This document shows positions 6,608-64,000 of a DNA stretch of 64,000 nucleotides, piece by piece. The stretch is from Erwinia endophytica (GTDB lineage Bacteria > Pseudomonadota > Gammaproteobacteria > Enterobacterales > Enterobacteriaceae): the NCBI RefSeq assembly GCF_009295515.1, contig NZ_RQVV01000053.1, forward strand, positions 310,001 to 374,000, read 5' to 3'. Every line of letters starts with the position of its first letter. The stretch's first letter is position 1. Position numbers and translations under genes: made by a program. The notes below the pieces were generated by a model that worked only from the letters and a program-made list of their open reading frames with translations, was not told where the DNA came from and searched no databases.

Positions 6608-6727
6608 AAATAAATTCCTTCTCGTCTGGCCACGGGGTACGGGCAGGCTATCAATACGGTTTCATGGCCGTTGAATTTGTATTTTGTCTTGTAAACTCGC
6701 AGAATAGTCTAGAATGAGGCTTAATAG

Positions 6728-6739: not shown

Positions 6740-6755
6740 TTATAAGGAGATGAAA

Positions 6756-7193: not shown

Positions 7194-7205
7194 AAAAACG
7201 GCAAT

Positions 7206-7237
7206 GGCCATAAAGCATTATGGCCTGCTGGTTTTTG
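7206..7237 (+). terminator. slyA terminator
   Basis: GGCCATAA and TTATGGCC form an 8-bp stem with an AGCA loop, followed within a few bases by GGTTTTTGG, 12 bp after the slyA stop. Confidence 0.7.
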
Positions 7238-7318
7238 GTATCATTTCTCAAGAAGAAGCCTTCTGTTTTGGGCTTACAGGAAAGATCTGGCGTTTTTATT
7301 AGCGCCTTTATGACCTTT

Positions 7319-7642
7319 TCAAATCTCTATGATTGCATCTGGCGCAAGGTGATTGGATCTGTTGCGCAAATACCCGGTTGATACATCATTTCTTGGCAAT
7401 GCGTTTAATTTTTCCCATGTGGTTCGCCAGAGCGCTGCAACCTCAGGCTTGAAGCTCAGGTTTTGTGCCAGTGACCCGTCGAGGACACTTCTCAATTCCA
7501 TCTTAACGAAAGTCACGATGTCATGATGGTGGAGCAGGGGTAAGTGATTAGCAGGGTGCCATTTAAGACGTTGCGTAATCTGCGGGATCATGCGTGGTGA
7601 GGGGATATACATCTGGTGGTAGCGAAGAATGTTCTGCGACAC
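7319..7642 (-). CDS. Hypothetical 107-residue protein between slyA and slyB
   Basis: I do not recognise this reading frame. It would start at GTG and encode 107 residues without a signal peptide or clear membrane segment; His-Pro-Leu-rich stretches (WHPANHLPLLHHHD) and a basic C-terminal half are the only notable features. The Shine-Dalgarno match (GGAG, one base from GTG) is badly spaced. In E. coli slyA and slyB are close convergent neighbours, so the DNA here looks inserted or diverged. It may be a remnant or non-coding. Confidence 0.3.
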   Translation of the reverse strand: MSQNILRYHQMYIPSPRMIPQITQRLKWHPANHLPLLHHHDIVTFVKMELRSVLDGSLAQNLSFKPEVAALWRTTWEKLNALPRNDVSTGYLRNRSNHLAPDAIIEI

Positions 7643-7766
7643 GCTCCGCTAATTTTAAAACGAACATGACGGAATGCCCTTACTCAGACTCGCCAGCCCC
7701 TGATGAAACAGGGGAGGCAACTCAGCCCTGAGGTGAGGGTGTTCCCACAGGGCAACGGGCGATTGG

Positions 7767-8234
7767 TTAGCGTGGTGAAACGGTAACTTGTCTGCCGTTG
7801 GAGGCAATAGCTACACGCATGCCTGGAGAGAAACGGCTGGCAGCCTGTTTTTGTACCACCATGATGGTGCTGCCGTCATCTTTACGGATTTCCAGCTCAA
7901 CACCCTGGGTTTTATTTATCGCACCCTGTACGCCTTGTCCAGCGACGCCACCGGCAACGGCACCCGCTGCGGTCGCCAGGCTACGGCCTGAACCCCCGCC
8001 GATGGTGTTACCGAGGAAGCCGCCCAACACGGCACCGCCGATCGCGCCGATCACATTATTCTCGTCGCCCGCCTGGATCTGTACCGGACGAACCGAAACC
8101 AACGTACCGTAAGTTACACTCTGAATCTGGCGTGCTTCAGAAGCACTGTAAACATCGCCAGAAAGCGTGCTAGTGTTGGCGCACCCTGCCAATGTCACAC
8201 CAGCCAGTGCCACAATTAACATACGCTTAAACAT
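7767..8234 (-). CDS. slyB: Outer-membrane lipoprotein SlyB
   Basis: A 155-residue lipoprotein of the Pal-like/glycine-zipper family that stabilises the outer membrane and is Mg2+/PhoP-linked in other enterics. The signal peptide ends in LAGC, so Cys18 is the lipidated residue. A glycine-zipper stretch follows (VIGAIGGAVLGGFLGNTIGG), then the conserved SYSTEM-like end KDDGSTIMVVQKQ and VSPR. An ATG six bases upstream exists, but AAGGAG is only two bases from it and eight from the ATG at 8234; the latter matches the family length of 155. No clear PhoP box was found on its own strand. Confidence 0.93.
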   Translation of the reverse strand: MFKRMLIVALAGVTLAGCANTSTLSGDVYSASEARQIQSVTYGTLVSVRPVQIQAGDENNVIGAIGGAVLGGFLGNTIGGGSGRSLATAAGAVAGGVAGQGVQGAINKTQGVELEIRKDDGSTIMVVQKQAASRFSPGMRVAIASNGRQVTVSPR

Positions 8235-8523
8235 GGTCATAACTCCTTTATTTTCTAATTGCTACCGTCAATTGTGTAGCGATCAATAACTTATATTATA
8301 TGGCACAAGCAATACTTGTCTCTTTTTTCTAACAAAAAAATGGTAATGACAAAATAGCGTAAGAGGCTTAAACCGGCATTCAATCAACTGCAAGTAGCTG
8401 TTAAATACGCTTAAAAAAAGTAACGTAGTTTAAAAATGTACAGTTAATCATAGAATTACCAGACCAATTTTGCGACGCTGTAAGTAAGAAAATTGATAAT
8501 CCTGACGGTTAAGGCATAAAAAT

Positions 8524-9645
8524 ATGAAATCAGGACGCTATATCGGGGTGATGTCAGGGACCAGTCTGGACGGCGTAGACGTGGTTTTAGCCGCGATTGA
8601 CAGTCAGAGGGTGGCGCAACAAGCCAGTTATTGTCATCCCATACCATCGGCATTGCGCCAGGCGATCCTCGCAATCTGCCAGGGGCAGCGGCTGACCCTG
8701 TCCCAACTGGGGCAGTTAGATACCCGGCTGGGGCGATTATTTGCCGAAGCGGTGCAGGCGTTGTTGCAGCGTGAAGGATTGGATAAAGACGACATCGTCG
8801 CGATTGGCTGCCATGGTCAGACGGTGTGGCATGAGCCGCAGGGAGAGGCGCCTAACACACTACAAATTGGTGATAACAACCAGATAGTGGTCGCCACGGG
8901 TATCACCGTTGTGGGCGATTTTCGCCGCCGGGATATGGCTCTGGGCGGGCAGGGCGCACCGCTGGTTCCGGCATTTCATCAGGCGATACTGATGCACCCG
9001 GTTGAACGCCGAATGGTGCTGAATATCGGCGGCATCGCGAATTTGTCGCTTTTGATCCCCGGCAAACCGGTGGGCGGCTATGATACCGGCCCCGGCAATA
9101 TTCTGTTGGATGCGTGGATCGGGCGGCATAAAGGACAACGCTATGATCGTGATAGCGCCTGGGGGAGTCGCGGTACCGTAATTTATCCGCTATTACAACA
9201 GATGCTGGCCGATCCCTGGTTCTCGCTACTCGCGCCCAAATCGACCGGCCGGGAATATTTCAATCTCGACTGGGTGGAACGGCAATTGCGGTATTTCCCC
9301 GGGCTGGCGCCGCAGGATGTGCAGGCTACGCTGGTGGAACTGACCGCGACCACTATTGCCGAACAAGTGATGCTGAGTGGGGGCTGTGAGCGCCTGTTAG
9401 TCTGTGGCGGCGGCAGTCGTAATCCGCAGTTGATGGCAAGGCTGATAAGCCTGCTGTCCGGTACGGAAGTGAATACCACTGACCAGGCCGGGATCAGCGG
9501 CGACGATATGGAAGGGCTGGCGTTTGCCTGGCTGGCCTGGCGTACCTTATCCGGTGAACCGGGTAATCTGCCCTCGGTGACAGGGGCGCGAGAGGCCTCG
9601 GTATTAGGGGCGATTTATCCTGCCAATACGCTGCGTTGCCGTTGA
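8524..9645 (+). CDS. anmK: Anhydro-N-acetylmuramic acid kinase
   Basis: A 373-residue cytoplasmic kinase of the ASKHA fold. It converts anhMurNAc from recycled murein, with hydrolysis of the 1,6-anhydro ring, to MurNAc-6-phosphate. The phosphate-binding motif [12 protein letters not shown] is at residues 8-19, and further conserved parts are [31 protein letters not shown] and [15 protein letters not shown]. Its position before mliC-pdxH-tyrS is that of E. coli. It is divergent from slyB, and the 289-bp gap must hold both promoters. Confidence 0.96.
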
Positions 9646-9721
9646 GATTCAGTCCGTTTTTCTCTGTCCCCGAATTATTGAGAGGAAAGCGGTTTGTTAT
9701 CATGTCCCTTGAGGAGACAGT

Positions 9722-10033
9722 ATGAAAAAAATAGGGGTCGCGTCCAGCCTGGTACTGCTTTCCGCTTGCAGTATGTCCCATATTCCGTTGGATCAACCGC
9801 AAACGCTGCACTACATTTGCGGCACGTTGCCCTTGACGGTGGTGCGTGATAACGCACGGCAGGAAGTTAACCTGATCCTGGACGGTAATCCGCTGACCCT
9901 TAAACAGCAGGAAACCGCTTCTGGCATGCGCTACAGTGATGGTAACTATGTTTTCTGGTCCAAAGGCGATGGGGCTTTTATCGTGCGAAACGGCAAAATT
10001 ATCATCAATGACTGCCGTTTGCATGCTGCTTAA
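9722..10033 (+). CDS. mliC: C-type lysozyme inhibitor MliC, outer-membrane lipoprotein
   Basis: A 103-residue lipoprotein that protects murein by binding the active site of C-type lysozyme. The signal sequence ends LLSAC, so Cys16 is lipidated. The mature beta-barrel has two further cysteines (YICG and NDCR) expected to form the family disulfide, and the inhibitory loop region GMRYSDGNYVFWSKGDGAFI. GAGGAGACAG precedes the ATG. It lies between anmK and pdxH as E. coli ydhA does. Small size and context make the call safe. Confidence 0.9.
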   Translation: MKKIGVASSLVLLSACSMSHIPLDQPQTLHYICGTLPLTVVRDNARQEVNLILDGNPLTLKQQETASGMRYSDGNYVFWSKGDGAFIVRNGKIIINDCRLHAA

Positions 10034-10097
10034 CCCATTGAAATCCATTGGGATGAAGCGCACAATGCCTCATCCCCTCCCAGTAGAAGCCTGAGCA

Positions 10098-10754
10098 ATG
10101 AACGAAAGCGATAACCTGCAGCAGATTGCCCATTTGCGCCGTGAATACACCCGGGGCGGTTTACGCCGTGACGATCTTCCCGCTGAACCGCTAGCCCTGT
10201 TTGAGCGCTGGCTGGGTCAGGCCATCGATGCTCAGTTGCCCGATCCGACGGCGATGTGTGTGGCGACGGTGGACGAACATGGTCAGCCCTATCAGCGTAT
10301 TGTCTTGTTGAAGCATTTCGACCCGCTTGGCATGGTGTTTTACACCAATCTTGGCAGCCGTAAAGCGCAGCATCTGGAACACAATTCGCGTATCAGTTTG
10401 CTGTTTCCGTGGCATATGCTTGATCGCCAGGTGATGGTCCTGGGGTCGGTAGAGAAGCTTTCGATGTTCGAGGTGGTGAAATATTTCCACAGCCGTCCGC
10501 GTGAAAGCCAGATTGGCGCATGGGTGTCTAAACAGTCCAGCCGGATTTCCGCCCGGGGCGTATTGGAAGGTAAGTTCCTCGAACTGAAGCAGAAATTCCA
10601 GCAGGGTGAAGTGCCATTGCCGAGTTTTTGGGGAGGATACCGGATCAAAATTGCTGCGATGGAATTCTGGCAGGGCGGTGCGCATCGCCTTCATGACCGT
10701 TTTTTCTACCAGCGTGAAGGTGAAAGCTGGAAAATTGATCGTCTCGCCCCGTAA
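10098..10754 (+). CDS. pdxH: Pyridoxine/pyridoxamine 5'-phosphate oxidase
   Basis: A 218-residue FMN enzyme that oxidises PNP or PMP to pyridoxal 5'-phosphate using oxygen, the last step of vitamin B6 synthesis and salvage. Characteristic segments are [20 protein letters not shown] (FMN site), [13 protein letters not shown], the C-terminal WGGYRIK and the ending [18 protein letters not shown]. Length equals E. coli PdxH (218). It is followed by a hairpin terminator before tyrS. Confidence 0.97.
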
Positions 10755-10774
10755 TTCCACGAAATAATCCCGTT

Positions 10775-10805
10775 AAGCGCTGGCACAGAGTGCGTCAGCG
10801 CTTTA
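10775..10805 (+). terminator. Terminator after pdxH
   Basis: AAGCGCTG and CAGCGCTT form an 8-bp stem around a 13-base loop, ending in CTTTATCC, 20 bp after the pdxH stop. Confidence 0.6.
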
Positions 10806-11072
10806 TCCTATAGGCCGTCATATCTCAGTTGCAGATACGTTGTCTGCCTGCGCCTGGCTGAATCACTGAGTCGTGTAAATTCATTAGAGCATTGATTCAC
10901 GTGAGGCGGTTTGATGACCTCCGCCCGGCGGAGGGCAGTGTTGGCACGGTTCAAAAATGCCAGCCGTTGTTGTCCTGCAACTGGATTATTGGTTTTTTTT
11001 GTTTTTTTCGTCCGCGCGTCGCGGAAAGCGGTGTACCAGCAATGGTGCAGACTTTTCTACATGGAGTCACAG

Positions 11073-12347
11073 ATGGCCAGCAGTAACCTGATAACACAAT
11101 TGCAAGAGCGGGGCTTAATCGCCCAGGTAACGGATGAGAACGCGTTAGCGGAACGACTGGCGCAGGGGCCAATCGTACTCTATTGCGGCTTCGATCCGAC
11201 TGCCGACAGCTTGCATTTGGGTCATCTGGTGCCGTTACTGTGCCTGAAACGCTTTCAGGATGCGGGGCACCGCCCGGTAGCGTTGGTCGGGGGGGCAACG
11301 GGCCTGATTGGCGATCCCAGCTTTAAAGCCGCTGAACGTAAGCTCAATACCAACGAGACCGTCAGTGAATGGGTGGAAAAGATTCGTCAACAGGTAGCGC
11401 CGTTCCTCGATTTTGATTGTGGTGAAAACAGCGCCATTGCGGCCAATAATTACGACTGGTTCGGCAATATGAACGTGCTGACCTTCCTGCGCGATATTGG
11501 CAAGCACTTCTCGGTCAACCAGATGATCAATAAAGAAGCGGTCAGGCAGCGTCTGAATCGTGATGATCAGGGGATCTCTTTCACTGAGTTCTCCTACAAT
11601 CTGCTGCAGGGGTACGACTTTGCCTGTCTGAACGAACGTTATGGCGTGGAACTGCAGATTGGCGGTTCCGATCAGTGGGGCAACATTACCTCCGGTATTG
11701 ACCTGACCCGTCGTTTGCATCAGCAGCAAGTATTTGGCCTGACCGTGCCGTTGATCACCAAATCCGACGGCACCAAGTTTGGTAAAACGGAAGGTGGCGC
11801 GGTCTGGCTGGATGCGAAAAAGACCAGTCCGTATAAATTCTATCAGTTCTGGATCAATACCGCGGATGCGGACGTTTACCGCTTCCTGAAGTTCTTCACT
11901 TTTATGAGTATTGAAGAGATCAATGCGCTGGAAGAAGAAGACCGGAATAGCGGCAAGGCGCCACGCGCTCAGTACGTTTTGGCCGAGCAGGTGACCCGTA
12001 TGGTACACGGCATGGAAGGTTTAGCCGCCGCGCAGCGTATCACTAAGAGCCTGTTTTCCGGCAGTCTGAATGAGATGACGGAAGCAGACTTTGAACAGTT
12101 AGCGCAGGATGGCATGCCATTTGTCGAGCTGGAGCGGGGAGACGATCTACAGCAGGCGATGGTGGCGGGCGATTTGGCGCCTTCCCGTGGTCAGGCACGT
12201 AAATTGATCGACGCTAAAGCGGTCAGCATCAATGGCGAGCTACAGCCAGACACCGAGTACGCTTTTGCGGCGACGGACAGACTTTATGACCGTTTTACGT
12301 TATTACGTCGCGGTAAGAAAAACTATTGTCTGGTCGTCTGGAAATAA
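11073..12347 (+). CDS. tyrS: Tyrosyl-tRNA synthetase
   Basis: A 424-residue class I aminoacyl-tRNA synthetase that charges tRNA-Tyr. The HIGH-type motif is HLGH in [12 protein letters not shown], the KMSKS loop is KFGKT, and an S4-like RNA-binding domain ends the protein ([19 protein letters not shown] ... RRGKKNY). The frame is open 162 bp further upstream, but those residues are unlike any synthetase. GGAG at 11063-11066 sets the ATG at 11073, giving exactly the E. coli length and MASSNLI start. A GC-rich hairpin lies between it and pdxY. Confidence 0.97.
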
Positions 12348-50885: not shown

Positions 50886-50901
50886 TGGCACGACGCTTGC
50901 A
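50886..50901 (+). promoter_or_regulatory. Sigma-54 promoter of nac
   Basis: TGGCAC-GACGC-TTGCA matches the sigma-54 -24/-12 consensus at every key position (GG-N10-GC), predicting transcription from about 50912, 70 bp before the nac ATG. Confidence 0.92.
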
Positions 50902-53342: not shown

Positions 53343-54803
53343 ATGCTCACCCAACGCTTAAATGACCCGCAACTGTTTAGGCAACAGGCCTGTTTTAATG
53401 GTAGTTGGCAGGCGGCCGCTAACGGCGAAACCCTCCCGGTCATCAACCCAGCCAGCGGTGAAGTTCTGGCGACGATCCCTGCCCTGGGCGCGCAAGAAAC
53501 CCATCAGGCGATCGCCTGTGCGGACGCTGTCCGGCAGAGCTGGGGTAAAACGCCGAATATTGAACGCGCTCAGTTGCTCGAAAAATGGCACCAGTTGATC
53601 CTCGATAACGCCGATGACCTCGCCATTATTATGACCGCAGAGCAAGGCAAACCTCTGGCTGAAGCCAAAGGCGAAGTGCTCTATGGCGCCAGCTTCGTAA
53701 AATGGTTTGCCGAAGAAGCCCGGCGTATTCATGGCGAAATGCTTCCGGCACCGAGCCATGATCGCCGTATTCTGGTGATGAAACAGCCTGTCGGCGTCGC
53801 GGCGGCCATCACGCCATGGAACTTCCCCATCGCGATGATCACCCGCAAAGTCGCGCCAGCGTTGGCCGCCGGTTGCCCAATCATTGTAAAACCTTCCGAG
53901 TTGACGCCATTCTCCGCGCTGGCGTTGATGGTGCTGGCGGAGCGGGCGGGGTTCCCTCCGGGAGTGCTGCAAATTCTGACCGGATTGCCGCAGGGTATCG
54001 GTGAAGCGCTGACCAGCAGTCGTACGGTGCGGAAAATTTCTTTCACCGGTTCCACCCGTGTCGGCCAGTTGCTGATGAAACAGAGCGCGGACAGCATCAA
54101 ACGTCTCAGTCTGGAATTGGGCGGCAACGCGCCACTGATCATTTTTGACGATGCCAGCCTGGATATCGCGCTTAATGGGGTGATGGTCAGTAAATTTCGT
54201 AATGCCGGACAGACCTGCGTCTGTGCCAACCGTATCCTCGTGCAGCGCGGCATCTATCCTCGCTTTGTTGAAAAACTGCTGGCTGCCGTCGCGCAGCTCA
54301 AGGTGGGGGATGGTTTTACACCGGGCAGCACTATTGGCCCGTTGATCAATGCGGCGGCGGTGAATAAGGTGAATGCGCATATTGATGATGCGGTCAGTCA
54401 TGGCGCGAGGGTTCTGACCGGTGGCCGTCACCATGGGGAGGGAACGTTTGTCCTCCCGACGGTGCTGGGCAATGTGACGTCGGCCATGCGCATCGCTCAT
54501 GAAGAAACCTTCGGTCCAGTGGCGCCGTTGTTTATTTTTGATACGGAAGAAGAGGCGATAGCACTGGCCAATGACACGCCGTATGGCCTGGGAGCCTACT
54601 TCTTCACTGAAGATCTCCGGCGGGCATGGCGAGTTGGCGAGGCGTTGGAGTTTGGTATGGTGGGTTATAATACCGGCGCCATTTCACTGGATGTGGCACC
54701 TTTCGGTGGTATTAAGATGTCGGGTTTAGGCCGTGAGGGATCGCATTTAGGTATAGAAGAATATCTTGAGATTAAGACGTTTCATTTCGGTAGTCTGAAC
54801 TAA
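53343..54803 (+). CDS. NAD(P)-dependent succinate-semialdehyde dehydrogenase family protein (GabD-like)
   Basis: A 486-residue aldehyde dehydrogenase. Landmarks are ITPWNFPIAMITRKVAPALAAGC, LELGGNAPLIIFDDA (general base Glu), RNAGQTCVCANRI (nucleophilic Cys with the neighbouring CVC seen in GabD) and HEETFGPVAPLF. This pattern belongs to the succinate/glutarate-semialdehyde group, which finishes GABA and polyamine breakdown. AAGGAG precedes the ATG. It is a single gene with a strong terminator, lying between cbl and the amine-oxidation operon, so it may supply the last step of that pathway. Confidence 0.85.
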   Translation: MLTQRLNDPQLFRQQACFNGSWQAAANGETLPVINPASGEVLATIPALGAQETHQAIACADAVRQSWGKTPNIERAQLLEKWHQLILDNADDLAIIMTAEQGKPLAEAKGEVLYGASFVKWFAEEARRIHGEMLPAPSHDRRILVMKQPVGVAAAITPWNFPIAMITRKVAPALAAGCPIIVKPSELTPFSALALMVLAERAGFPPGVLQILTGLPQGIGEALTSSRTVRKISFTGSTRVGQLLMKQSADSIKRLSLELGGNAPLIIFDDASLDIALNGVMVSKFRNAGQTCVCANRILVQRGIYPRFVEKLLAAVAQLKVGDGFTPGSTIGPLINAAAVNKVNAHIDDAVSHGARVLTGGRHHGEGTFVLPTVLGNVTSAMRIAHEETFGPVAPLFIFDTEEEAIALANDTPYGLGAYFFTEDLRRAWRVGEALEFGMVGYNTGAISLDVAPFGGIKMSGLGREGSHLGIEEYLEIKTFHFGSLN

Positions 54804-54905: not shown

Positions 54906-54943
54906 TGGTGCAAAAAAATAACTATTCGCCCTGCCGTGGTGCA
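54906..54943. promoter_or_regulatory. Candidate NtrC half-sites upstream of the amine-oxidation operon
   Basis: Two direct copies of TGGTGCA (54906-54912 and 54937-54943) are 31 bp apart, about three helical turns, and lie 145-185 bp upstream of the predicted sigma-54 start. Each equals one half of the NtrC dyad; the left halves are poor (CGCCCT at the second copy, 3 of 6). Tentative enhancer. Confidence 0.4.
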
Positions 54944-55062
54944 ATTTTTAAATGTTGTAAATCATTGGCTTATGCATTCGGCTTATCCGTGAAATTTAGT
55001 CGCTGATTACGGCATAAAATTTTTTTCACGCCGTTTTTACGCATTTTTATTTTTTCACTGAC

Positions 55063-55078
55063 TGGCATGTTTTCTGCA
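55063..55078 (+). promoter_or_regulatory. Candidate sigma-54 promoter of the amine-oxidation/ABC operon
   Basis: TGGCAT-GTTTT-CTGCA has GG and GC exactly ten bases apart and differs from the consensus only at the first base of the -12 element. Predicted start is about 55089, giving a 110-base leader before the aldehyde dehydrogenase ATG. Confidence 0.65.
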
Positions 55079-55198
55079 TTAAATGAATAACAGCGAAATC
55101 ATTCTCCAGGAAAAATGGCCGGGAATGATGACTTAGCAGGCTAAATAGATGATCGGGTGACTTAATTTTCCGGGTGTGATCAATATAAGGCTTTAACC

Positions 55199-56668
55199 AT
55201 GTTAAGTTTCGATCCAGATAAAGTATCACTGCCGGATGGACACTATATTGCCGGACAACGGCGCCAGTGTCCTGGTAACCGCTTTGCCGTCAAACGCCCC
55301 TCTGATGGGCGGGTAGCGGGTGAGCTGACAGAAGCCAGCGCCGGGGTGGTGGATGACGCGGTATGTGTCGCTGACCGCGCGCTAAAAGACAGTGGCTGGG
55401 CCAGTTGTTCTCCCCGTCAGCGCGGCGCCGTGTTACAGCGCTGGGCCACCTTGATTGAAGCGGACAGTCAGCTTCCGTTGCTGGAGGCGCTGGGATCCAC
55501 CCGACCGATTTTTGACGTGGTTCACCATGAAATTCCGTTTACCGCCGCGGCAATCCGTTTTTACGCTGAATGTGCTGACAAATATAGCGGTGATGTCTTT
55601 CCCACCCGTGATGCCAGCCTCGGCATGTTAGTGCCGGAACCGTATGGCGTGATCGGCGCTATTACTCCGTGGAATTTCCCGTTATCGATGGCTTCCTGGA
55701 AATGCGGCCCGGCGCTGGCGGCCGGTAATGCGGTGGTGCTGAAACCTTCTGAACTCACGCCTTATTCCACGATCCGCCTGGCGGAACTGGCGGTGGAAGC
55801 CGGGCTTCCCGCGGGCATCCTCAATATTGTGCAAGGGAGCGGGGCGGTCAGCGGCAGTGCGCTGGTGGCGCATCCGTTGGTACGCAAAGTCTCTTTTACC
55901 GGCTCGACGCTGACTGGCGCGCGCATCATGAGTGATGCCGCTTACCATGGTATGAAACCGGTCACGCTGGAACTGGGGGGCAAAAGCCCGCAGCTGGTGT
56001 TTGATGATGCGGGCGAGGTGACGGACGTGGCCGAACGTATCCTGCGCGGTTTTACCGCGAATGGCGGGCAGGCTTGTGTTGCTGGAACGCGACTGATTGT
56101 GCAGCGTGGTATCGCTGATGCGCTGATCAGCCAACTGATTACGCGGTGTCAGGATTTTCGGCCAGGCCTGACCTGGGATGAAAACAGCCGCTACGCGCCA
56201 GTGATTGATCGCCGTCAGGCAGAAAAAATTCAACAGATAGTGGATGCCGCCAGCTTGCAGGGCGGGGAAATCCTGGTCGGGGGCCAACGTTTTGCCGATA
56301 CCGGCGACGGTTATTTCTGGCAGCCGACGTTGATTGCGAACGTCTCGCCAGACAGTCCGGCGCTACAGGAGGAGATTTTTGGCCCGGTACTGACCATACA
56401 AATCTTCGATGAAGAAGAACAGGGCCTGGCGTTGGCCAGCCATCCTACCTACGGCCTGTGCGCCGGAGTACATACCAAAAATCTTGACCGGGCATTACGC
56501 GCCATGCGGGGAATTGCCGCAGGAACGGTGTGGATCAACCGTTATGGCCGCTCGGGCGACTTTATTATTCCTACCGGCGGCTTTCATGGTTCCGGCATTG
56601 GCAAAGATTTAGGCCGACAGGCTTTTGAAGCCTGTCGACGCTACAAAAGCGTGCTGATCGATTTTTGA
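55199..56668 (+). CDS. Aldehyde dehydrogenase family protein (PuuC/betaine-aldehyde-like)
   Basis: A 489-residue NAD(P)-dependent aldehyde dehydrogenase, first gene of a long operon. Conserved parts are ITPWNFPLSMASWKCGPALAAGN, LELGGKSPQLVFDD (Glu), ANGGQACVAGTRL (nucleophilic Cys) and EEIFGPVLTI. It probably oxidises the aldehyde released by the FAD oxidase encoded downstream. Substrate is unknown. AAGG lies nine bases before the ATG. The HAD gene follows 36 bp later. Confidence 0.85.
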   Translation: MLSFDPDKVSLPDGHYIAGQRRQCPGNRFAVKRPSDGRVAGELTEASAGVVDDAVCVADRALKDSGWASCSPRQRGAVLQRWATLIEADSQLPLLEALGSTRPIFDVVHHEIPFTAAAIRFYAECADKYSGDVFPTRDASLGMLVPEPYGVIGAITPWNFPLSMASWKCGPALAAGNAVVLKPSELTPYSTIRLAELAVEAGLPAGILNIVQGSGAVSGSALVAHPLVRKVSFTGSTLTGARIMSDAAYHGMKPVTLELGGKSPQLVFDDAGEVTDVAERILRGFTANGGQACVAGTRLIVQRGIADALISQLITRCQDFRPGLTWDENSRYAPVIDRRQAEKIQQIVDAASLQGGEILVGGQRFADTGDGYFWQPTLIANVSPDSPALQEEIFGPVLTIQIFDEEEQGLALASHPTYGLCAGVHTKNLDRALRAMRGIAAGTVWINRYGRSGDFIIPTGGFHGSGIGKDLGRQAFEACRRYKSVLIDF

Positions 56669-56704
56669 CCCTTCACCCACGACTGAATTTGAAGAGGATG
56701 CGTT

Positions 56705-57373
56705 ATGGCTGTGTTTAAACCGAAGTACATTACCTTCGACTGTTACGGCACCCTGATCAACTTCGATATGGCGGGCGCTGCAGCCAGCCAGTTCGCTGAT
56801 CGCATCAGTCCGCAGCAGATGGCGGCGTTTACCGAAGATTTCTCTCGCTACCGCATGGATGAAGTGTTGGGCGCTTTCAAACTTTATCCGCAGGTGGTGG
56901 GGGATGCGCTGTACCGTACCTGCAACAAATGGCGGGTGGAATGTACCGAGCAGGACTGTGCGGCCATTATGGCTGCCTGCGCCACCTGGGGGCCGCATCC
57001 GGATGTCCCCGCCGGGCTGGCAACTGTGGCGAAAGCCTTCCCACTGGTGCTGCTGACTAACTCGACTGACGCGCTGATCAAACATCATGTGCCACGGCTG
57101 GGCGCGCCGATTTATATGACAATCACCGCGGAAGAAGTCGGCGCTTACAAGCCGCAAATGAAGGGCTTTGAAGTCATGCTCAGCAAGCTCGACTGCGGGC
57201 CGGAAGAGATCCTGCATGTCTCCAGCAGTTTGCGCTATGACCTGATGACTGCGCACGATCTTGGTATCAAGCACAAAGTTTTCGTCAATCGCGGTCATGG
57301 CCCGGGTCTGGATTACTACGGCTATACCGAAGTGAAAGACATTGGCGGCCTTCCGGCGGTAGTAGGTCTGTAA
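56705..57373 (+). CDS. HAD-superfamily hydrolase, type II haloacid dehalogenase-like
   Basis: A 222-residue HAD hydrolase. The nucleophile motif is FDCYGTLINF (Asp12), motif II LLTNSTD, motif III Lys in GAYKPQMKGFE, and motif IV HVSSSLRYDLMTAHDLGI. The pattern is of the haloacid dehalogenase type II group, but many such proteins are phosphatases; in this operon it may process a phosphorylated or substituted intermediate. GAGGATG precedes the ATG. It lies between the aldehyde dehydrogenase and the oxidase. Confidence 0.82.
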   Translation: MAVFKPKYITFDCYGTLINFDMAGAAASQFADRISPQQMAAFTEDFSRYRMDEVLGAFKLYPQVVGDALYRTCNKWRVECTEQDCAAIMAACATWGPHPDVPAGLATVAKAFPLVLLTNSTDALIKHHVPRLGAPIYMTITAEEVGAYKPQMKGFEVMLSKLDCGPEEILHVSSSLRYDLMTAHDLGIKHKVFVNRGHGPGLDYYGYTEVKDIGGLPAVVGL

Positions 57374-57393
57374 TCCGGCACAGGAGCAGGGCG

Positions 57394-58671
57394 ATGAAAC
57401 TGGAATCTTTCTGGCAGGCCACGGCGCCAGCGTTTAGCCATGCCGCGCAGGGCGATCTGCCCTCCAGCGCGGATGTGGTGGTGATCGGCGGTGGGTTTAC
57501 CGGCATCTCGGCGGCTTTAACATTGGCTCGTAGCGGGCTGAACGTGGTGGTATTGGAGGCGGCAGGCGTGATGAGCCAGGCCTCGGCCCGTAACGGTGGG
57601 CATTGTAATACTGGGGTGGCGCAGAATTTCGCCGCGTTGATCGCCAGCCAGGGACGGGAACAGGCTTGTCGTTACTATCGTGCCTTTGCGGACGCGGTGG
57701 ACTATGTGCAAAGCCTGGTTATTGATGAGCAGATCGACTGTGATTTTTTGCGTTGCGGCAAAATTAAACTAGCCAGTAAACCGTCGCACTTTGCCGGACT
57801 ACGGACGACCTGGGAGGCACTGCGCAACCATGTCGACCGTGATGTGGAGCTACTCGGGGCGGATGAGATACGCCGTGAGGTGGATTCCGCCGCTTTTCAC
57901 GGTGGCTTGATCCAACGGCGTGGCGGCCAGATGCACATGGGTAAATTCGGCATTGGCCTGGCGCAGGCGGCGGCCCGCAGTGGCGCGAAGATCTTTGAGC
58001 ACACGCCAGTCACCAGCCTGACGCGGATAAAGGGCTATCAGCATCGCGTGGGGACGGGCAAAGGCGAAATTCTGGCCGAAAAAGTGCTGATGGCGACCGG
58101 TTGCTCCAATATCGGCCCGTTTGACTGGTTCCAGCGGCGTATCATCCCGATTGGCAGTTTTATCGTGGTGACTGAACCGTTGCCGGAAGCGCAACTCAAG
58201 ACGTTGATACCCAACAACCGCACCTGCGTCACCTCCCTGAATATCGGCAATTACTTTCGTACTACCGCTGATCATCGGCTGGTGTTCGGTGGTCGCGCCC
58301 GCTTTGCCGTCAGCAATCCGACCTCCGACGCACGCAGCGGAAAAATACTGCAAGCCGGGTTGAGCAAAATGTTCCCGACGCTGGCTACCGCAAAAATCGA
58401 CTATTGCTGGGGCGGACTGGTGGACATGACGGCCGATCGCCTGCCGCACGCCGGAGAACATGACGGTGTTTTCTACTCGCTGGGTTACAGCGGCCACGGT
58501 ACCCAGATGTCGGTCTGGATGGGACGGGTGATGGCTAATCTGCTGGCCGAGAAAAGCAATGAAAATCCCTGGCAGCGCGCAAGCTGGCCTGCGGTTCCTG
58601 GCTATTTTGGCAAACCGTGGTTTTTGCCGATTGCCGGGTTGTATTACAAGGCTAAGGATCGGCTCTCCTGA
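57394..58671 (+). CDS. FAD-dependent amine/amino-acid oxidase (DAO family, PuuB-like)
   Basis: A 425-residue flavoprotein of the glycine/D-amino-acid oxidase fold. The FAD motif is VVVIGGGFTGISAALTLARSGLNVVVLEA (about residues 29-57), followed by SARNGGHCNTGVAQNF, the gamma-glutamylputrescine-oxidase-like ARNGGH/Q motif, and a C-terminal WGGLVDMTADRLPHAGEHDGVFYSLGYSGHG. It should oxidise a C-N bond to give an aldehyde and ammonia or an amine, feeding the aldehyde dehydrogenase. GGAG-type ribosome site; 20 bp after the HAD gene and 31 bp before the binding-protein gene. Confidence 0.87.
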   Translation: MKLESFWQATAPAFSHAAQGDLPSSADVVVIGGGFTGISAALTLARSGLNVVVLEAAGVMSQASARNGGHCNTGVAQNFAALIASQGREQACRYYRAFADAVDYVQSLVIDEQIDCDFLRCGKIKLASKPSHFAGLRTTWEALRNHVDRDVELLGADEIRREVDSAAFHGGLIQRRGGQMHMGKFGIGLAQAAARSGAKIFEHTPVTSLTRIKGYQHRVGTGKGEILAEKVLMATGCSNIGPFDWFQRRIIPIGSFIVVTEPLPEAQLKTLIPNNRTCVTSLNIGNYFRTTADHRLVFGGRARFAVSNPTSDARSGKILQAGLSKMFPTLATAKIDYCWGGLVDMTADRLPHAGEHDGVFYSLGYSGHGTQMSVWMGRVMANLLAEKSNENPWQRASWPAVPGYFGKPWFLPIAGLYYKAKDRLS

Positions 58672-58702
58672 GTAATTAACGTGCGACTTTGAGGGTGTGC
58701 AG

Positions 58703-60304
58703 ATGAGTAAATTTCGCAAAGAATTTAACCGTGTTACCCCATCTTTAACCCAGGCTATCAACGAGGTGGCTATTTCCCGGCGCGGCATGATGAAGCTGCT
58801 GTCGGCGGGCGCGATGATCAGCACCGGTCTGATTTCCCCCGCTTTCAGCTTTGCCGCTGAAACACCGGTTAAAGGCGGTAAGCTGCGCGCGGCGATGGCC
58901 AACGCTTCCGCCACCGACACGCTTGACCCGGCCAAAGGGAATAACAGCAGCGACTATACCCGCCAGTTCATGTTCTACAGCGGCCTGACTGAACTGGATA
59001 AAAACCTGACGGCACAACCTGCGCTGGCGGAATCGATCGAAAGCAGCGATGGCATTAGCTGGCTTATCAAGCTACGTCCCGGCGTTACTTTCCACGATGG
59101 TAAAACCCTGACGGCGCAGGATGTGGTCTGGTCGTTGAGTCGCCATAAAGATCCGGCGGTGGCTTCCACCGCTATCTCACAGGCCAGGCAGTTTAGTCGC
59201 ATCACCGCCGTGAGTCCGACAGAAGTAAAACTGGTGCTGACGCAGGCAAATTTCGATCTGCCGGTTGTTCTGGCCACCAGCCCGTTTCTGATCCTGCAGG
59301 AAGGAACCAAAGATTTCAGTAAGGCGAATGGCACCGGGCCGTATATCTGCCAGAGCTTTACCCCTGGCGTCAGCACTGTCGGCATCAAAAATCCGCATTA
59401 CTGGAAATCCGGCCTGCCGCATCTGGATCAAGTCGAGCTGTTGGGAGTCACCGATCAGGCTGCGCGCGTCAATGCGCTGATGTCTGGCGACCTGCATATA
59501 GTGGCGACGCTGACGCCCAGCGATGTCAAGCGCTTGCGCCAGTCCGGTCAGTTTGGCGTGCTGGAGAGCAAGTCCGGCATGTACACCAACCTGATTGTCC
59601 GCACCGACATGAAACCAGGCAGCAATGAAGATTTCGTGCTGGGGATGAAATACCTGCAACCGCGTGAAATCATGGTGAAAACGGTGATGCAGGGCTTCGG
59701 TCAGGTGGCCAACGATACGCCGGTGCCACCGTGGCATCCGCTGTACAACAAGGAAATTCCGCAGCGTCCGCTGGATGTAGAAAAAGCCAAATATCATTTT
59801 AAAAAAGCGGGCATGACGGGGGCGAGTGTGGAAATTATCACCACCCAGAATATTGAAGGCGCGGTGGAAGGAGGGCAGCTCCTCCAGCAGCTTGGCCGTT
59901 CTGCCGGGATGAATTTTCAGGTTCGCCGCGTACCGTATGACGGCTACTGGTCAACGCACTGGACCAAAGATCCGGTTGGTTACGGTTCGATCAATCCACG
60001 TCCAACGCTCGATCTGTTGTTGTCTCAGTTTTATCTCTCCGATGCGCCAAACAATGAATCAGGCTGGAAAAATCCACAGTTCGATCAACTGGTCATCGCG
60101 GCGCGGGGTGAGGGCGATCAAGCCAAACGCAAGCAGATGTATGGTGATATACAGCAATTAATTTATGACCACTGCGGCACCATTATCCCGACATTCATCA
60201 GCTCACTGGACGGTTACAGCAATAAAGTCAAAGGGGTGGAAGCCTGGCCGTCAGGCATGATGATGGGTTACCGTTTTCATGAGTTTGCCTGGCTGGCTTC
60301 CTGA
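58703..60304 (+). CDS. Peptide/opine-type ABC importer substrate-binding protein (SBP_bac_5), Tat signal
   Basis: A 533-residue periplasmic protein of the DppA/OppA family. The leader is long and has a twin-arginine motif SRRGMMKLL before the hydrophobic core, so it is probably exported folded by Tat, unusual for this family. Mature features include GLTELDKNLTAQPALAESIESSDG and WLIKLRPGVTFHDGKTLTAQDVVWSL. GAGG eight bases before ATG 58703 is preferred over the GTG at 58697. It delivers the operon's unknown substrate to the two permeases downstream. Confidence 0.88.
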   Translation: MSKFRKEFNRVTPSLTQAINEVAISRRGMMKLLSAGAMISTGLISPAFSFAAETPVKGGKLRAAMANASATDTLDPAKGNNSSDYTRQFMFYSGLTELDKNLTAQPALAESIESSDGISWLIKLRPGVTFHDGKTLTAQDVVWSLSRHKDPAVASTAISQARQFSRITAVSPTEVKLVLTQANFDLPVVLATSPFLILQEGTKDFSKANGTGPYICQSFTPGVSTVGIKNPHYWKSGLPHLDQVELLGVTDQAARVNALMSGDLHIVATLTPSDVKRLRQSGQFGVLESKSGMYTNLIVRTDMKPGSNEDFVLGMKYLQPREIMVKTVMQGFGQVANDTPVPPWHPLYNKEIPQRPLDVEKAKYHFKKAGMTGASVEIITTQNIEGAVEGGQLLQQLGRSAGMNFQVRRVPYDGYWSTHWTKDPVGYGSINPRPTLDLLLSQFYLSDAPNNESGWKNPQFDQLVIAARGEGDQAKRKQMYGDIQQLIYDHCGTIIPTFISSLDGYSNKVKGVEAWPSGMMMGYRFHEFAWLAS

Positions 60305-60319
60305 TTAAGGAGAACGGCA

Positions 60320-61273
60320 ATGAACCGCTATCTGCTGTTACTGATTGCCCGGCGCTGCGGCGCTGGCATCCTGACCTTGTTGATTATTTCGGCGGTGGTG
60401 TTTTTTGTCACCAGCCTGCTGCCGGGTGATGCGGCGCAGATGATCCTGGGACAAAGCGCCACACCGGAAACGGTCGCCGCGCTGCGCCAGCAACTGGGGT
60501 TGGACCAGCCACTGCTGATGCGTTACTTCGCCTGGCTGGGCGGCATGTTGCACGGTAATTTCGGCATCTCGTTCGCCAGTCATTTGCCGGTATCGCAACT
60601 GGTGGCGCAACGGATGCCGGCGACCTTTGAGCTGGCGGCGGTCACCACGCTGGTGTCAGTCCCCCTGGCGCTGGTGATTGGTCTGACGGCGGCGATGAAA
60701 CGCGGTTCTCTGTTTGATCGTGGTCTGATGATCGGCACCATGGCAGTGGTGGCGGTGCCAGAGTTTCTGGTGGCCACTCTCGCGGTGATTATTTTTGCGG
60801 TTAAGTTGCATTGGGTGCCGGCGATGTCGCTGGGGACGCCGACGGGGGATATCGGCAGCTATCTGAAAACCTACGCGCTGCCGGTATTGACGCTCTGTTG
60901 CGTGTTGGTGGCGCAGATGGCGCGGATGACCCGGTCGGCGCTGATTAACCAGATGGACAGCCCTTACCTGGAAATGACCCTGTTGAAAGGCGTTTCGCCG
61001 TTGCGGGCGATGTTACGACACGCGTTGCCAAACGCGGTCGGTCCGATCGCCAACGCGATTTCCCTCAGCCTCTCTTACCTGTTTGGCGGGGTTATCATCA
61101 TTGAAAGTATTTTCAGCTATCCCGGCCTGGCGAGCCAATTGGTCGATGCGGTCAGCAACCGCGACCTGCCGGTGGTGCAGCTCTGCGTGATGCTGTTCGC
61201 CGGGTGCTATCTGATCCTGCTGCTGGCGGCGGATATCCTCACCATCGCATTCAATCCTAAGTGGAGGGGCTGA
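60320..61273 (+). CDS. Peptide/opine-type ABC permease (DppB-like)
   Basis: A 317-residue inner-membrane permease with six hydrophobic segments. Typical DppB features are the N-terminal RRCGAGILTLLIISAVVFFVTSLLPGD, LRQQLGLDQPLLMRYFAWLGGMLHGNFGIS and the coupling (EAA) loop YLEMTLLKGVSPLRAMLRHALPNA. AAGGAG precedes the ATG. The stop overlaps the next start (TGATG). Confidence 0.92.
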   Translation: MNRYLLLLIARRCGAGILTLLIISAVVFFVTSLLPGDAAQMILGQSATPETVAALRQQLGLDQPLLMRYFAWLGGMLHGNFGISFASHLPVSQLVAQRMPATFELAAVTTLVSVPLALVIGLTAAMKRGSLFDRGLMIGTMAVVAVPEFLVATLAVIIFAVKLHWVPAMSLGTPTGDIGSYLKTYALPVLTLCCVLVAQMARMTRSALINQMDSPYLEMTLLKGVSPLRAMLRHALPNAVGPIANAISLSLSYLFGGVIIIESIFSYPGLASQLVDAVSNRDLPVVQLCVMLFAGCYLILLLAADILTIAFNPKWRG

Positions 61274-62124
61274 TGAACGCATTGACGCTACCCTGGCGCT
61301 TCTTTCTGTCGCTGACCCGCAGCGGTAAAGCGGGTCTGCTGATAACCCTGCTGTGGATTTTTCTTGCGCTGTTCGGCAGCGCGCTCGCGCCGCATAATCT
61401 GGAGGATATCGGCAGCGGCCCGATGATGGGAGGGGTCAGCAAAACCTACTGGTTTGGGACCGACTATCTCGGACGGGACATGTTCAGCCGCATCCTGTAT
61501 GGCGCACGTTATTCGATTGGTCTGGCGCTCGGCGCTGCGCTGCTCGCCAGCCTGACCGGAACCCTGCTGGCGCTGCTGTCGGCCGTCGCCGGACGCTGGC
61601 TGGAGGAACTGCTCGGCCGGATCAATGACGCGATGCTGGTGTTACCTGGCAAAATCCTCGCGCTGATGATCGTGGCGGTGTTTGGTTCTTCGTTGCCGAT
61701 GCTGGTGCTGACCGCGACGTTTACCTACTGGCCCGGCGCTTACCGCATAGCCTGGGCGATGGCTTCCAACCTGCGTTCAATGGATTATGTCCGCGCTTCC
61801 CGGCTACGGGGCGAAAGCCGTTTCTACCTTGCTTTTCATGACATTCTGCCGAATATGTTGCATCCGATGCTGACCGATTTCGGCCTGCGTTTCGTCTATA
61901 TTGTGCTGTTACTCAGTGGGCTGAGTTTTCTCGGTTTGGGGGTGCAGCCGCCTTATGCCGATTGGGGCACGTTGGTGCGTGAAAATCTGCAAGGGTTGTT
62001 TGATGGGTCTCCGGCCGTACTGATGCCCGCGCTGGCGATCGCCAGCCTGACTATCGGCGCGAATCTGTTTATCGACAGCTTGCAAGCCATGCGACCGCTC
62101 AGCCCGGCGAAGGGGGTGGCATGA
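61273..62124 (+). CDS. Peptide/opine-type ABC permease (DppC-like)
   Basis: A 283-residue permease with DppC pattern: FGTDYLGRDMFSRILYGARYSIGLAL, the EAA loop YVRASRLRGESRFYLAFHDILPNML and LSGLSFLGLGVQPPYADWGTLV. GGAGG five bases before ATG 61273 is preferred over an upstream GTG at 61261. It pairs with the DppB-like subunit and overlaps both neighbours. Confidence 0.92.
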   Translation: MNALTLPWRFFLSLTRSGKAGLLITLLWIFLALFGSALAPHNLEDIGSGPMMGGVSKTYWFGTDYLGRDMFSRILYGARYSIGLALGAALLASLTGTLLALLSAVAGRWLEELLGRINDAMLVLPGKILALMIVAVFGSSLPMLVLTATFTYWPGAYRIAWAMASNLRSMDYVRASRLRGESRFYLAFHDILPNMLHPMLTDFGLRFVYIVLLLSGLSFLGLGVQPPYADWGTLVRENLQGLFDGSPAVLMPALAIASLTIGANLFIDSLQAMRPLSPAKGVA

Positions 62125-63785
62125 ACATTACGCCGCACAGCGCCCGCCCGGTAGTGGCGGTGGAAAATCTGCGCGTGGTTGCTCATGGTGAAGATGGTCA
62201 TGAGATCCCACTGGTGAGCGATATTCGTTTTAATGTGCAAAAAGGTGAAGTTCTGGCGCTGATTGGTGAGTCCGGGTCGGGTAAAACCACCATTGCGCTG
62301 GCGCTGATGGGCTATGCCCGCCATGGCTGCCATATTACTGCCGGGAATATTCACGTCGCCGGGACTGATGTGACGGCGCTGAGCGCAAAACAGTTGCGCC
62401 AGTTCCGGGGCAACAAAGTGGCCTACATCGCCCAGAGCGCCGCCGCCTCATTCAATCCGGCGATGAAGATTATCGACCAGGTGGTGGAGCCGGTCGTTAT
62501 CCATGGCGTGATGAGCCGGGCCGAAGCCGAGGAAAAAGCACGTCAGTTGTTTCACCAACTGGCATTGCCGGAGCCGGAAAGTATCGGTAAACGTTATCCG
62601 CACCAGGTCTCCGGCGGTCAGTTGCAACGACTGATGACCGCGATGGCGTTGATCGGCGATCCGGAGGTGGTGATCCTTGATGAACCGACTACCGCGCTGG
62701 ATGTGACAACCCAGGTCGAAGTGCTGAAGGTCTTCCGCCAGGTGGTGCGGCAGCGCGGGATGACGGCGGTTTATGTCAGCCACGATCTGGCGGTGGTGGC
62801 GCAGATGGCTGACCGTATTCTGGTGCTGCGAAAAGGGGCGATGGTCGAATATGGCACCACGGAACAACTGCTGCGGGCACCGCAGGCGGAATACAGCCAT
62901 CTGCTGTTGGACGCGGCGAAACTGCAACCCCGGCCCACGCCATGGAAAATGCCTGATGACCGCCAACAGCCTTTACTGGAAGTCCGCGATATTTTCGCCG
63001 GATACGGCCCGCTGGACAGGCAGGGACAGCCGAAAATCCCGATCCTGCATGATATCAACTTCAAACTGTTTCGCGGTCAGGCTATCGGCATTATCGGCGA
63101 GTCTGGCTCAGGGAAAACGACCCTGGCGCATGTGATTGCCGGGCTGAATGTGCCGTCCAGTGGGCATATTCTGTTCAGCGGCCACTATATTGATGGCGAC
63201 ATGCGCCAACGTGCGGAAGACGAGCTGCGGCGTATTCAATATGTCTTCCAGTCAGCCGATACCGCCCTTAACCCGGCGCATACTATTGCGACTATTCTCA
63301 GCCGTCCGTTGCAGCGCTTTCATCGTCTGCGCGGTGCGGCACAGGAGCAGCGGCTGGCTGAACTACTGGAGCTGGTGCAGTTGCCACGTAGCGTATTGAA
63401 CCGCCATCCCTGGGCATTGTCTGGTGGGCAAAAACAACGCGTGAACCTGGCGCGGGCGCTGGCGGCAGAACCCGATTTGATCCTCTGCGATGAAGTGACC
63501 TCGGCACTGGATTCGGTGGTGGCTGCCGCCGTATTGGATTTGATCACTGATCTGCGCCGCGAGCTGGGCTTGTCAGTGATATTTATCAGTCACGATCTGC
63601 ACGCCGTGCGTTCGGTTTGCGATGAAATTATCGTAGTGAAAAAAGGGCGGATGGTGACGCAGGTGGTCCGTGCTGACTACGATAAGCCGTCGACTGAACT
63701 CTATTACGAGCGGCTGAAACGGGCGGTGCCGGAATTGCGGCAAGGCTGGCTGGATGAACATGAAGCTAACGATATTGCGCTGTGA
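62121..63785 (+). CDS. Peptide/opine-type ABC ATPase, fused DppD-DppF pair
   Basis: A 554-residue protein with two complete ABC domains, as in GsiA-type importers where DppD and DppF are fused. Domain 1 has GESGSGKTTIA, VSGGQLQRLMTAMAL and VVILDEPTTALD; domain 2 has GESGSGKTTLA, LSGGQKQRVNLARAL and LILCDEVTSALDSVV. Both sites look active, although domain 2 has Val where DEPTSALD is usual. The start overlaps the upstream permease by 4 bp. It completes the importer. Confidence 0.93.
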   Translation: MNITPHSARPVVAVENLRVVAHGEDGHEIPLVSDIRFNVQKGEVLALIGESGSGKTTIALALMGYARHGCHITAGNIHVAGTDVTALSAKQLRQFRGNKVAYIAQSAAASFNPAMKIIDQVVEPVVIHGVMSRAEAEEKARQLFHQLALPEPESIGKRYPHQVSGGQLQRLMTAMALIGDPEVVILDEPTTALDVTTQVEVLKVFRQVVRQRGMTAVYVSHDLAVVAQMADRILVLRKGAMVEYGTTEQLLRAPQAEYSHLLLDAAKLQPRPTPWKMPDDRQQPLLEVRDIFAGYGPLDRQGQPKIPILHDINFKLFRGQAIGIIGESGSGKTTLAHVIAGLNVPSSGHILFSGHYIDGDMRQRAEDELRRIQYVFQSADTALNPAHTIATILSRPLQRFHRLRGAAQEQRLAELLELVQLPRSVLNRHPWALSGGQKQRVNLARALAAEPDLILCDEVTSALDSVVAAAVLDLITDLRRELGLSVIFISHDLHAVRSVCDEIIVVKKGRMVTQVVRADYDKPSTELYYERLKRAVPELRQGWLDEHEANDIAL

Positions 63786-63817
63786 CGGGCTACCGGGGAT
63801 CGGTAAAGGAGAAGAGG

Positions 63818-64000
63818 GTGAGCGTGCAGATTTTCACTATGAATGAACAACATCTTGATTGGGCGGTCAGCCTGACCCAGCATCTGCAGTGGCCACATCG
63901 TCGTGCCGACTGGCAGCAGGCGCTGTCGCTGGGGGAAGGACTGGTAGCGGAGTTGGATGGTCACCCCGTCGGCACCACGCTGTACTGGCGTTGGGGGGAG
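63818..64000 (+). CDS. GNAT-family N-acetyltransferase, 5' part
   Basis: The first 61 codons of a gene that runs off the right edge. Reading VQIFTMNEQHLDWAVSLTQHLQWPHRRADWQQALSLGEGLVAELDGHPVGTTLYWRWGE, split as an alpha-helical start and the first strands, it has the GNAT pattern (V/A-E-x-DGxPVGT). GTG at 63818 or 63824 could be the start, with AAAGGAG and GAGG upstream. It is 32 bp after the ATPase and likely the next operon gene; acetylation of an amine substrate or product is an inference. Confidence 0.65.
   Translation, partial: MSVQIFTMNEQHLDWAVSLTQHLQWPHRRADWQQALSLGEGLVAELDGHPVGTTLYWRWGE

Follow-up and report, generated by a model that had tools for sequence, protein, structure and literature searches.

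The azetidine-2-carboxylate (AC) hydrolase pathway, known from the AC hydrolase of Pseudomonas A2C and from AzhA of A. nidulans, is among the described systems closest to the locus presented here: a hydrolase of the HAD superfamily acts on the ring, and transamination of the gamma-aminobutyrate (GABA) type and oxidation of a semialdehyde follow. Type II HAD enzymes, of which L-2-haloacid dehalogenase, cis-epoxysuccinate hydrolase and AC hydrolase are examples, attack the alpha carbon beside a carboxylate, the leaving group being a halide, an epoxide oxygen or, for AC hydrolase, the nitrogen of the ring. Nicotianamine serves plants as a carrier of metals, and grasses secrete mugineic acids, which are built on nicotianamine, for iron. 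We describe an operon with a type II HAD gene in a 64,000-nucleotide stretch of Erwinia endophytica DNA (contig C49 of a 4.2 Mb genome; hereafter the window), and our leading reading, to which we would give a little less than an even chance, is that it imports and dismantles plant nicotianamine or a kindred N-substituted azetidine-2-carboxylate of the mugineic-acid family as a nitrogen source.

In the window, a run of closely spaced genes on the forward strand encodes an aldehyde dehydrogenase (ALDH) of the aminobutyraldehyde/betaine-aldehyde type (55199..56668; PF00171, with NF010000 as the best NCBIfam model at 406 bits, below its cut-off of 615), the HAD hydrolase (56705..57373), an amine oxidase of the DAO family dependent on flavin adenine dinucleotide (FAD) and lying directly after it (OX1, 57394..58671; PF01266, best NCBIfam model AmaA L-pipecolate oxidase at 178 bits, below cut-off), a family 5 periplasmic binding protein (SBP, 58697..60304; PF00496), whose closest paralogue within the same genome is 30% identical, the importer permeases PermB (60320..61273; Opp2B/NikB-like) and PermC (61261..62124, with its real start possibly at the ATG at 61273; Opp1C/NikC-like), both below the model cut-offs, a fused two-domain importer ATPase (62121..63785) exceeding the cut-offs of the CntD, CntF, NikD and NikE models, and a GNAT acetyltransferase, recognised by domain match, whose first part lies in the window (63782..64000) and whose gene extends to 64660. 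A preliminary description of this DNA had listed this gene set, and all members are as it described them; it had let the operon end with the GNAT gene, and there it fell short. Beyond the window, on the same scale, the operon continues with a GhrA-like D-isomer 2-hydroxyacid dehydrogenase (64660-65586), a GabT-type class III transaminase (65625-66941; 544 bits against a cut-off of 507 for TIGR00700, GABA transaminase) and, last, an Lrp/AsnC regulator (67083-67589). Upstream lie nac, cbl and, on the forward strand as a unit of its own, the gene for a GabD-like semialdehyde dehydrogenase of the SSADH subfamily (53343..54803; TIGR01780, 672 bits against a cut-off of 646), 58% identical to E. coli GabD; nac and this gene had both been pointed out earlier, and the latter accompanies the cluster in relatives.

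It is the HAD hydrolase, given no role in the preliminary description, that leads to azetidine-2-carboxylate chemistry, and from its sequence we predict that it opens the azetidine-2-carboxylate ring. The protein scores 152 bits against TIGR01428 (cut-off 125) and has the Asp nucleophile of type II enzymes in a DCYGTL motif, Asp12 being invariant in 60 of 60 aligned homologues. Its closest PDB sequence is 3smv, L-azetidine-2-carboxylate hydrolase (66.8 bits, E 1.9e-17), followed by 8hp5 (58.6 bits), with other dehalogenases at 36.5 bits or less; for the homologue at locus L084, 8hp5 comes first (81.5 bits) and 3smv second (63.8). Deposited as '(S)-2-haloacid dehalogenase', the protein of 8hp5-8hp7 shares 56% identity with AC hydrolase in the part compared, and its K152A form was crystallised, as the PDB title states, with (2R)-4-amino-2-hydroxybutanoic acid, which is the ring-opening product. 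Because of this title, that of 8hp7, the R product is documented for the AC-hydrolase clade.

A scan with the HAD gave 578 confirmed loci, the best 80 of which form the set to which all counts out of 80 refer. Genes were counted as homologues within about 10 kb of the HAD, with same-family queries overlapping and contig ends cutting some flanks. The hosts include Bradyrhizobium (23 loci), Mesorhizobium (14), Erwinia (6) and Pantoea (6). At any identity, homologues were found for the ATPase in 73 loci, SBP in 72, GhrA in 70, GabD in 65, transaminase AT3 in 52, Lrp in 51, a cupin in 48, GNAT in 46, GNAT2 in 43, the oxidase OX3 in 40, ALDH in 39, OX1 in 38, a second FAD oxidase (OX2) and a tartrate/D-malate dehydrogenase in 30 each, and an ArgE-like M20 protein in 25. 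When at least 40% identity is demanded, the counts are GhrA 70, GabD 65, AT3 52, Lrp 51, GNAT 44, ALDH 38, OX1 37, OX3 34, SBP 34, tartrate/D-malate dehydrogenase 30 and OX2 29, and an OX1-, OX2- or OX3-type oxidase is present at this level in 74 of the 80 loci. The raw SBP count overstates the importer proper, which is confined to the 34 loci at the higher level; the other SBP matches, at 20-27% identity, are different family 5 importers, mostly of Bradyrhizobium and Mesorhizobium. The GabT-type transaminase of the window is unmatched at 40% among the 80, mainly because enterobacterial flanks end short of it, and it has counterparts with 79% identity in L002 and 89% in L003.

The cluster appears to be tied to azetidine-2-carboxylate through shared neighbours, that is, by guilt by association. 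Ten plasmid loci with AC hydrolases (47.8-62% identity to 3smv) were picked by hand across genera from 25 rows listed among 448 matching records (L090, L091 and L095-L102, two being from one Thioclava strain and two from Paraburkholderia). Seven of the ten, or seven of 11 when S. meliloti pMl1 (L093) is included, carry at least one homologue of the cluster within 9 kb. B. ambifaria (L090) has Lrp, GabD (54%) and a transaminase 74% identical to that of the Burkholderia cluster; Paraburkholderia (L096) has Lrp, GabD (55%) and the transaminase (73%); Cupriavidus (L095) the transaminase (56%), GabD (64%) and GabT (62%); Leisingera (L098) the transaminase (60%), Lrp, GabD (64%) and tartrate dehydrogenase (57%); Thioclava (L091) the importer (46-55%) and Lrp; Roseomonas (L099) Lrp; and Rhodococcus (L100) a tartrate dehydrogenase (50%) starting 293 nt downstream of the AC hydrolase. 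The likeness extends to the window's own proteins: the Lrp of four AC-hydrolase loci is 59-65% identical to that of the window, against 45% for the best paralogue of the latter in its own genome, the Thioclava importer matches that of the window at 43% (SBP), 47 and 45% (permeases) and 51% (ATPase), and the GabD-like protein is 52% identical to that of the B. ambifaria locus. Transaminases from rhizobial clusters and from the B. ambifaria locus belong to the same NCBIfam subfamily (861.3 and 860.9 bits, cut-off 729). Moreover, between its transaminase and SBP genes the cluster of S. meliloti (L089, 9500-10213) and R. leguminosarum (L094, 2180-2893) contains an additional HAD, which is of the AC-hydrolase type (143 bits against 3smv) and falls within the AC side of the HAD tree; L089 also has a second oxidase and a tartrate dehydrogenase. 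Four of the 80 loci likewise have a second AC-type HAD (L070, L078, L081 and L088, from Agrobacterium rubi, Rhizobium Leaf262, Limoniibacter and Gemmobacter). The contrast locus of P. syringae (L092) has no homologue of the cluster set besides the HAD.

As to nitrogen control, the preliminary description had seen a near-consensus -24/-12 element with two NtrC half-sites, and these are in place. The sigma-54-type element, TGGCAT-N5-CTGCAT (TGGCATGTTTTCTGCAT), lies at 55063..55079 on the forward strand, with GG at 55064-55065 and GC at 55076-55077 in GG-N10-GC spacing. The strict pattern TGGCA[CT]N5[CT]TGCA has two matches in the 64 kb, both strands considered, as compared with an average of 0.15 in 200 mononucleotide shuffles. 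A different pattern, TTGGCACRNNNNTTGCW, proved overly strict and gave zero matches in the genome. The second match to TGGCA[CT]N5[CT]TGCA, at 50886, is just ahead of nac, and this consensus-like sigma-54 element (TGGCACGACGCTTGCA, 50886-50901) constitutes a natural positive control. Conservation in orthologous loci, a check that had been suggested, bears the element out: every enterobacterial locus for which DNA ahead of ALDH was available has it there (19 of 19). These loci comprise the window, Klebsiella and Serratia plasmids, Erwinia, Pantoea, Chimaeribacter, Tatumella and others, and are partly close kin (two are E. persicina); L016 was left out for having no upstream DNA. GG-N10-GC is retained in this set, with the largest deviations in L002 and L025. 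Both NtrC-type half-sites read GGTGCA on the forward strand; the position of the first (54907..54912) is conserved in relatives, and the second (54938..54943) is the downstream half of a degenerate TGCACC-N5-GGTGCA site, which we take to be the NtrC consensus. The partner-side TGCACC is present in L002 and L017, and several loci have an imperfect palindrome of this form around the half-site. At least one exact half-site occurs in 18 of the 19 loci (none in L025), against a mean of 0.55 and a maximum of 5 of 19 in 1000 mononucleotide shuffles. By its conservation the promoter is real, and we infer that the operon depends on RpoN or NtrC. The conserved promoter and the gene set together support the earlier idea of nitrogen-regulated import and oxidation of an amine. 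A near-invariant block, CGGCAnAAAATTTTTTT, stands between the half-sites and the -24 element (window 54960-55060 and the aligned upstream regions) and is perhaps an IHF-type bending site.

Taken as a catabolic route, the operon may be read as follows, with the substrate, the order of the HAD and oxidase steps and all enzyme activities deduced from gene order, promoter conservation and homologies. SBP, PermB, PermC and the ATPase would bring in the chelator, free or metal-bound. Using Asp12 as the nucleophile against the alpha carbon, the HAD would open the strained azetidine ring with inversion, the substrate being either the N-substituted compound itself, whose ring nitrogen would become a secondary amine, or released azetidine-2-carboxylate. 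OX1, together with OX2 in sister copies of the cluster, would split the secondary amine links into fragments of the aspartate-semialdehyde type, and ALDH is predicted to act on the aldehyde produced by the oxidase. We favour the order in which the HAD precedes the oxidase on the N-substituted ring, on the basis of the direct succession of HAD and OX1 in 38 of the 80 loci; the separate AC-type HAD of rhizobia, if it serves the free acid, would fit this order. Displacement at an L alpha carbon would yield the R hydroxy acid, and from the ring-derived (R)-4-amino-2-hydroxybutyrate, transamination by the GabT-type enzyme and oxidation by its GabD-like partner would lead to D-malate. The D-malate would re-enter central metabolism through a D-2-hydroxyacid dehydrogenase, for which this operon has the GhrA-like enzyme and other bacteria the tartrate/D-malate dehydrogenase. 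Enzymes of D-specific or D-malate type do occur in the clusters, GhrA-like in 70 and tartrate/D-malate dehydrogenase in 30 of the 80 loci. The latter scores 578 bits against TIGR02089 (cut-off 470), a model that presumably points to D-malate via TtuC/DmlA-type enzymes, and it stands in line with the AC hydrolase in Leisingera; the B. ambifaria AC-hydrolase locus has a YdiJ-like D-2-hydroxyacid dehydrogenase, below its cut-off. The Lrp/AsnC protein may be the pathway sensor, and the GNAT protein, with the M20 deacetylase elsewhere, may mask or unmask an amino group.

An N-substituted azetidine-2-carboxylate is suggested because the importer and the oxidases would be superfluous for the free acid, for which the B. 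ambifaria AC-hydrolase locus has GabP instead, and the plant compounds that most obviously answer to this description are nicotianamine and the mugineic acids. Oxidative cutting of the nicotianamine chain would give pieces of the aspartate-semialdehyde type, matching ALDH. Hypusine, azetidine peptides, medicanine-type compounds and haloacids are possible substrates as well. A bolder form of the nicotianamine reading, which we hold more tentatively still, is that the cluster represents the first bacterial pathway to be defined genetically for both nicotianamine and the mugineic-acid phytosiderophores: a nitrogen-starvation-induced importer, a new HAD clade opening the ring of the intact N-substituted molecule, amine oxidases then cutting the secondary amines and the ring carbon leaving as D-malate, common to enterobacteria, rhizobia and Burkholderiales and moving on Klebsiella and Serratia plasmids.

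Several observations weigh against the nicotianamine reading. In a tree of 44 rows, the window HAD forms its own clade (98/98) apart from the AC side (98/96), which rules out that it is an AC hydrolase orthologue; the likeness retained is one of mechanism. Its predicted structure (mean predicted local distance difference test score, pLDDT, 94.7) is equally close to AC hydrolase and to dehalogenases. Two genes of the sister copies, OX2 and the M20 deacetylase-like gene, are missing from the window copy; OX2-like genes are found elsewhere in the same genome (52% identity on contig C3, 43% on C45), as is an M20-like gene (43%, C3). Three of the AC-hydrolase loci (L097, L101 and L102) share no cluster neighbours, and the GabT-type transaminase of the window is only 29% identical to that of B. 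ambifaria, whereas that of the Burkholderia cluster is 74% identical. Finally, the S. meliloti pMl1 locus (L093) is not a clean control: its HAD falls on the AC side of the tree, on a long branch, and the locus has an OX2-like (32%), a dehydratase-like (35%) and ABC ATPase genes (28-32%) and no Lrp, transaminase or GabD homologue. Separately, contig C45 of the same genome carries a second DAO oxidase with a family 5 binding protein and an ABC ATPase (G000:C45:57733-60369, L006), and L102 (Paraburkholderia aromaticivorans pBN2, 4500-11842) has its AC-hydrolase-like HAD amid an iron-containing redox enzyme, a peptide-ligase-like gene, a 2OG-Fe dioxygenase and an MFS transporter, where it perhaps provides self-protection within an azetidine natural-product cluster.

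Passages in PMC10341464 place nicotianamine metal complexes in xylem and phloem sap and report that A. halleri is able to secrete nicotianamine, and nicotianamine synthesis is important in Medicago nodules according to part of PMC7003136. Mugineic acids are described as readily degraded by soil microbes (excerpts of PMC7946895 and PMC4143957), and an analogue in which proline stands for the azetidine acid is seemingly more stable in soil (excerpts of PMC7946895 and PMC12364333); the fertiliser analogue PDMA carries this replacement partly as a guard against biodegradation, and the authors attribute the instability of the natural compound to its strained ring (PMC7946895, in the same excerpts). 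These soil data are consistent with an azetidine-opening route without identifying it. No paper among the open-licence matches listed names bacterial genes for mugineic-acid or nicotianamine breakdown. If the nicotianamine reading is true, the destruction of crop iron carriers in soil gains candidate genes, the azetidine ring as the weak point of mugineic acids is explained, microbes competing with crops or nodules for metal carriers acquire a marker, and nitrogen control becomes linked to a metal chelator.

On the Klebsiella plasmid pX39-1 (L002, 10002-26780) the whole set together with GabD, OX2 and M20 is flanked by insertion sequences, as it likewise is on Serratia pQE31, and OX1 occurs on 16 Klebsiella plasmids (pX39-1 and 15 more) at 71.5-71.8% identity; the gene set is a mobile unit. 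It is also an accessory trait: with its own genome included, the HAD is present at 81% identity or more in 22 of 37 same-genus genomes and at 50% or more in 5 of 295 genomes drawn evenly over the order. The Klebsiella plasmids with OX1 come from clinical, sewage, meat and vegetable isolates. In three same-genus genomes (G008, G023 and G027) there is a further HAD copy, with about 50% identity to the query. In some Burkholderiales, ornithine-cyclodeaminase-like and threonine-dehydratase-like genes join the cluster (L004, 19776-23149; L071; L085), as does an M20 gene in L004 and L085, and these additions perhaps serve hydroxylated side chains.

Among the alternatives, we consider it unlikely, though less so than the others, that what the operon deals with is azetidine-2-carboxylate in free form or within small peptides, as toxin and nitrogen source at once, with the oxidase and ALDH acting on a side product. 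The regulator, transaminase and GabD held in common with AC-hydrolase loci would agree with this, a peptide-type importer and the M20 enzymes of sister copies would suit azetidine peptides, and the HAD AzhA, the GNAT NgnA and the GABA pathway of A. nidulans are described as handling the free acid in parts of PMC8016842; the window GNAT, however, is a two-domain protein (PF18014 and Acetyltransf_1), and the B. ambifaria locus with its GabP has neither this importer nor OX1. Less likely again is that a polyamine or hydroxylated amine such as hypusine gives 4-amino-2-hydroxybutyrate or GABA after oxidation while the HAD acts elsewhere. The 32% identity of OX1 to PuuB, 42% of ALDH to PuuC and 51% of the transaminase to PuuE, beside that of the GabD-like protein to GabD, recall the Puu pathway, and GNAT and M20 are reminiscent of acetylated polyamines, but this leaves no place for a type II HAD acting on an alpha carbon and the AC-hydrolase association unexplained. 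With identities this low and no PuuA or PuuD among the open reading frames of the operon, the only ones searched, we reject a gamma-glutamyl-amine route, and the substrates proposed in the preliminary description find no support.

It seems improbable that the operon serves to break down an amino compound that is halogenated or epoxidised, with the HAD as a genuine 2-haloacid dehalogenase or epoxide hydrolase: relatives are annotated 'haloacid dehalogenase type II', the fold match is tied with ZgHAD and near cis-epoxysuccinate hydrolase, and tartrate dehydrogenase would suit a tartrate product, but the PDB scores place AC hydrolase and 8hp5 well ahead of other dehalogenases, and the presence of an aminotransferase and of amine oxidases is in keeping with an amine. 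A classical opine of the octopine, mannopine or staphylopine type, imported and oxidised, is about as doubtful. In its favour, the ATPase exceeds the CntD/CntF cut-offs, and AgaA and MoaA are among the structural neighbours of the SBP, whose predicted structure (pLDDT 87) did not separate ligands. Against it, the same ATPase also exceeds the cut-offs of NikD/NikE, the SBP reaches 53 bits against the CntA cut-off of 800, on which opine/Cnt membership is rejected, and the HAD, GabT and D-hydroxyacid dehydrogenases would have no evident role.

Compared with known systems, the importer shares a family 5 SBP, two permeases and Opp-type ATPases with Nik/Cnt and Dpp/Gsi, the window SBP being 26% identical to GsiB, 25% to NikA (over 309 residues) and 23% to DppA. 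Membership of the dipeptide-binding DppA clade, and with it dipeptide import, is rejected: D436 and R383 of DppA are absent in all six SBPs aligned with it (five from the cluster, one from the Thioclava AC-hydrolase locus). Next to the D436 position an Arg is conserved. Ectoine catabolism (Doe/Eut) presumably has a similar transaminase, semialdehyde dehydrogenase and Lrp-type regulator, and the M20 enzyme of sister copies resembles its DoeB2; that pathway has a different importer, no DoeA-type hydrolase was seen among the operon reading frames, and the M20 of pQE31 scores 319 against a cut-off of 550, so ectoine catabolism is rejected. The E. coli Puu pathway has the logic of FAD oxidase, ALDH and GABA transaminase in common with the window operon, which, unlike it, is without a glutamate ligase or gamma-Glu hydrolase and has a HAD, an ABC importer and a D-hydroxyacid dehydrogenase. 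To the AC hydrolase pathway, whose bacterial loci have Lrp, transaminase and GabD related to those of the cluster, the window unit adds a separate HAD clade, a family 5 ABC importer, one or more amine oxidases, ALDH, GNAT and NtrC/sigma-54-type elements.

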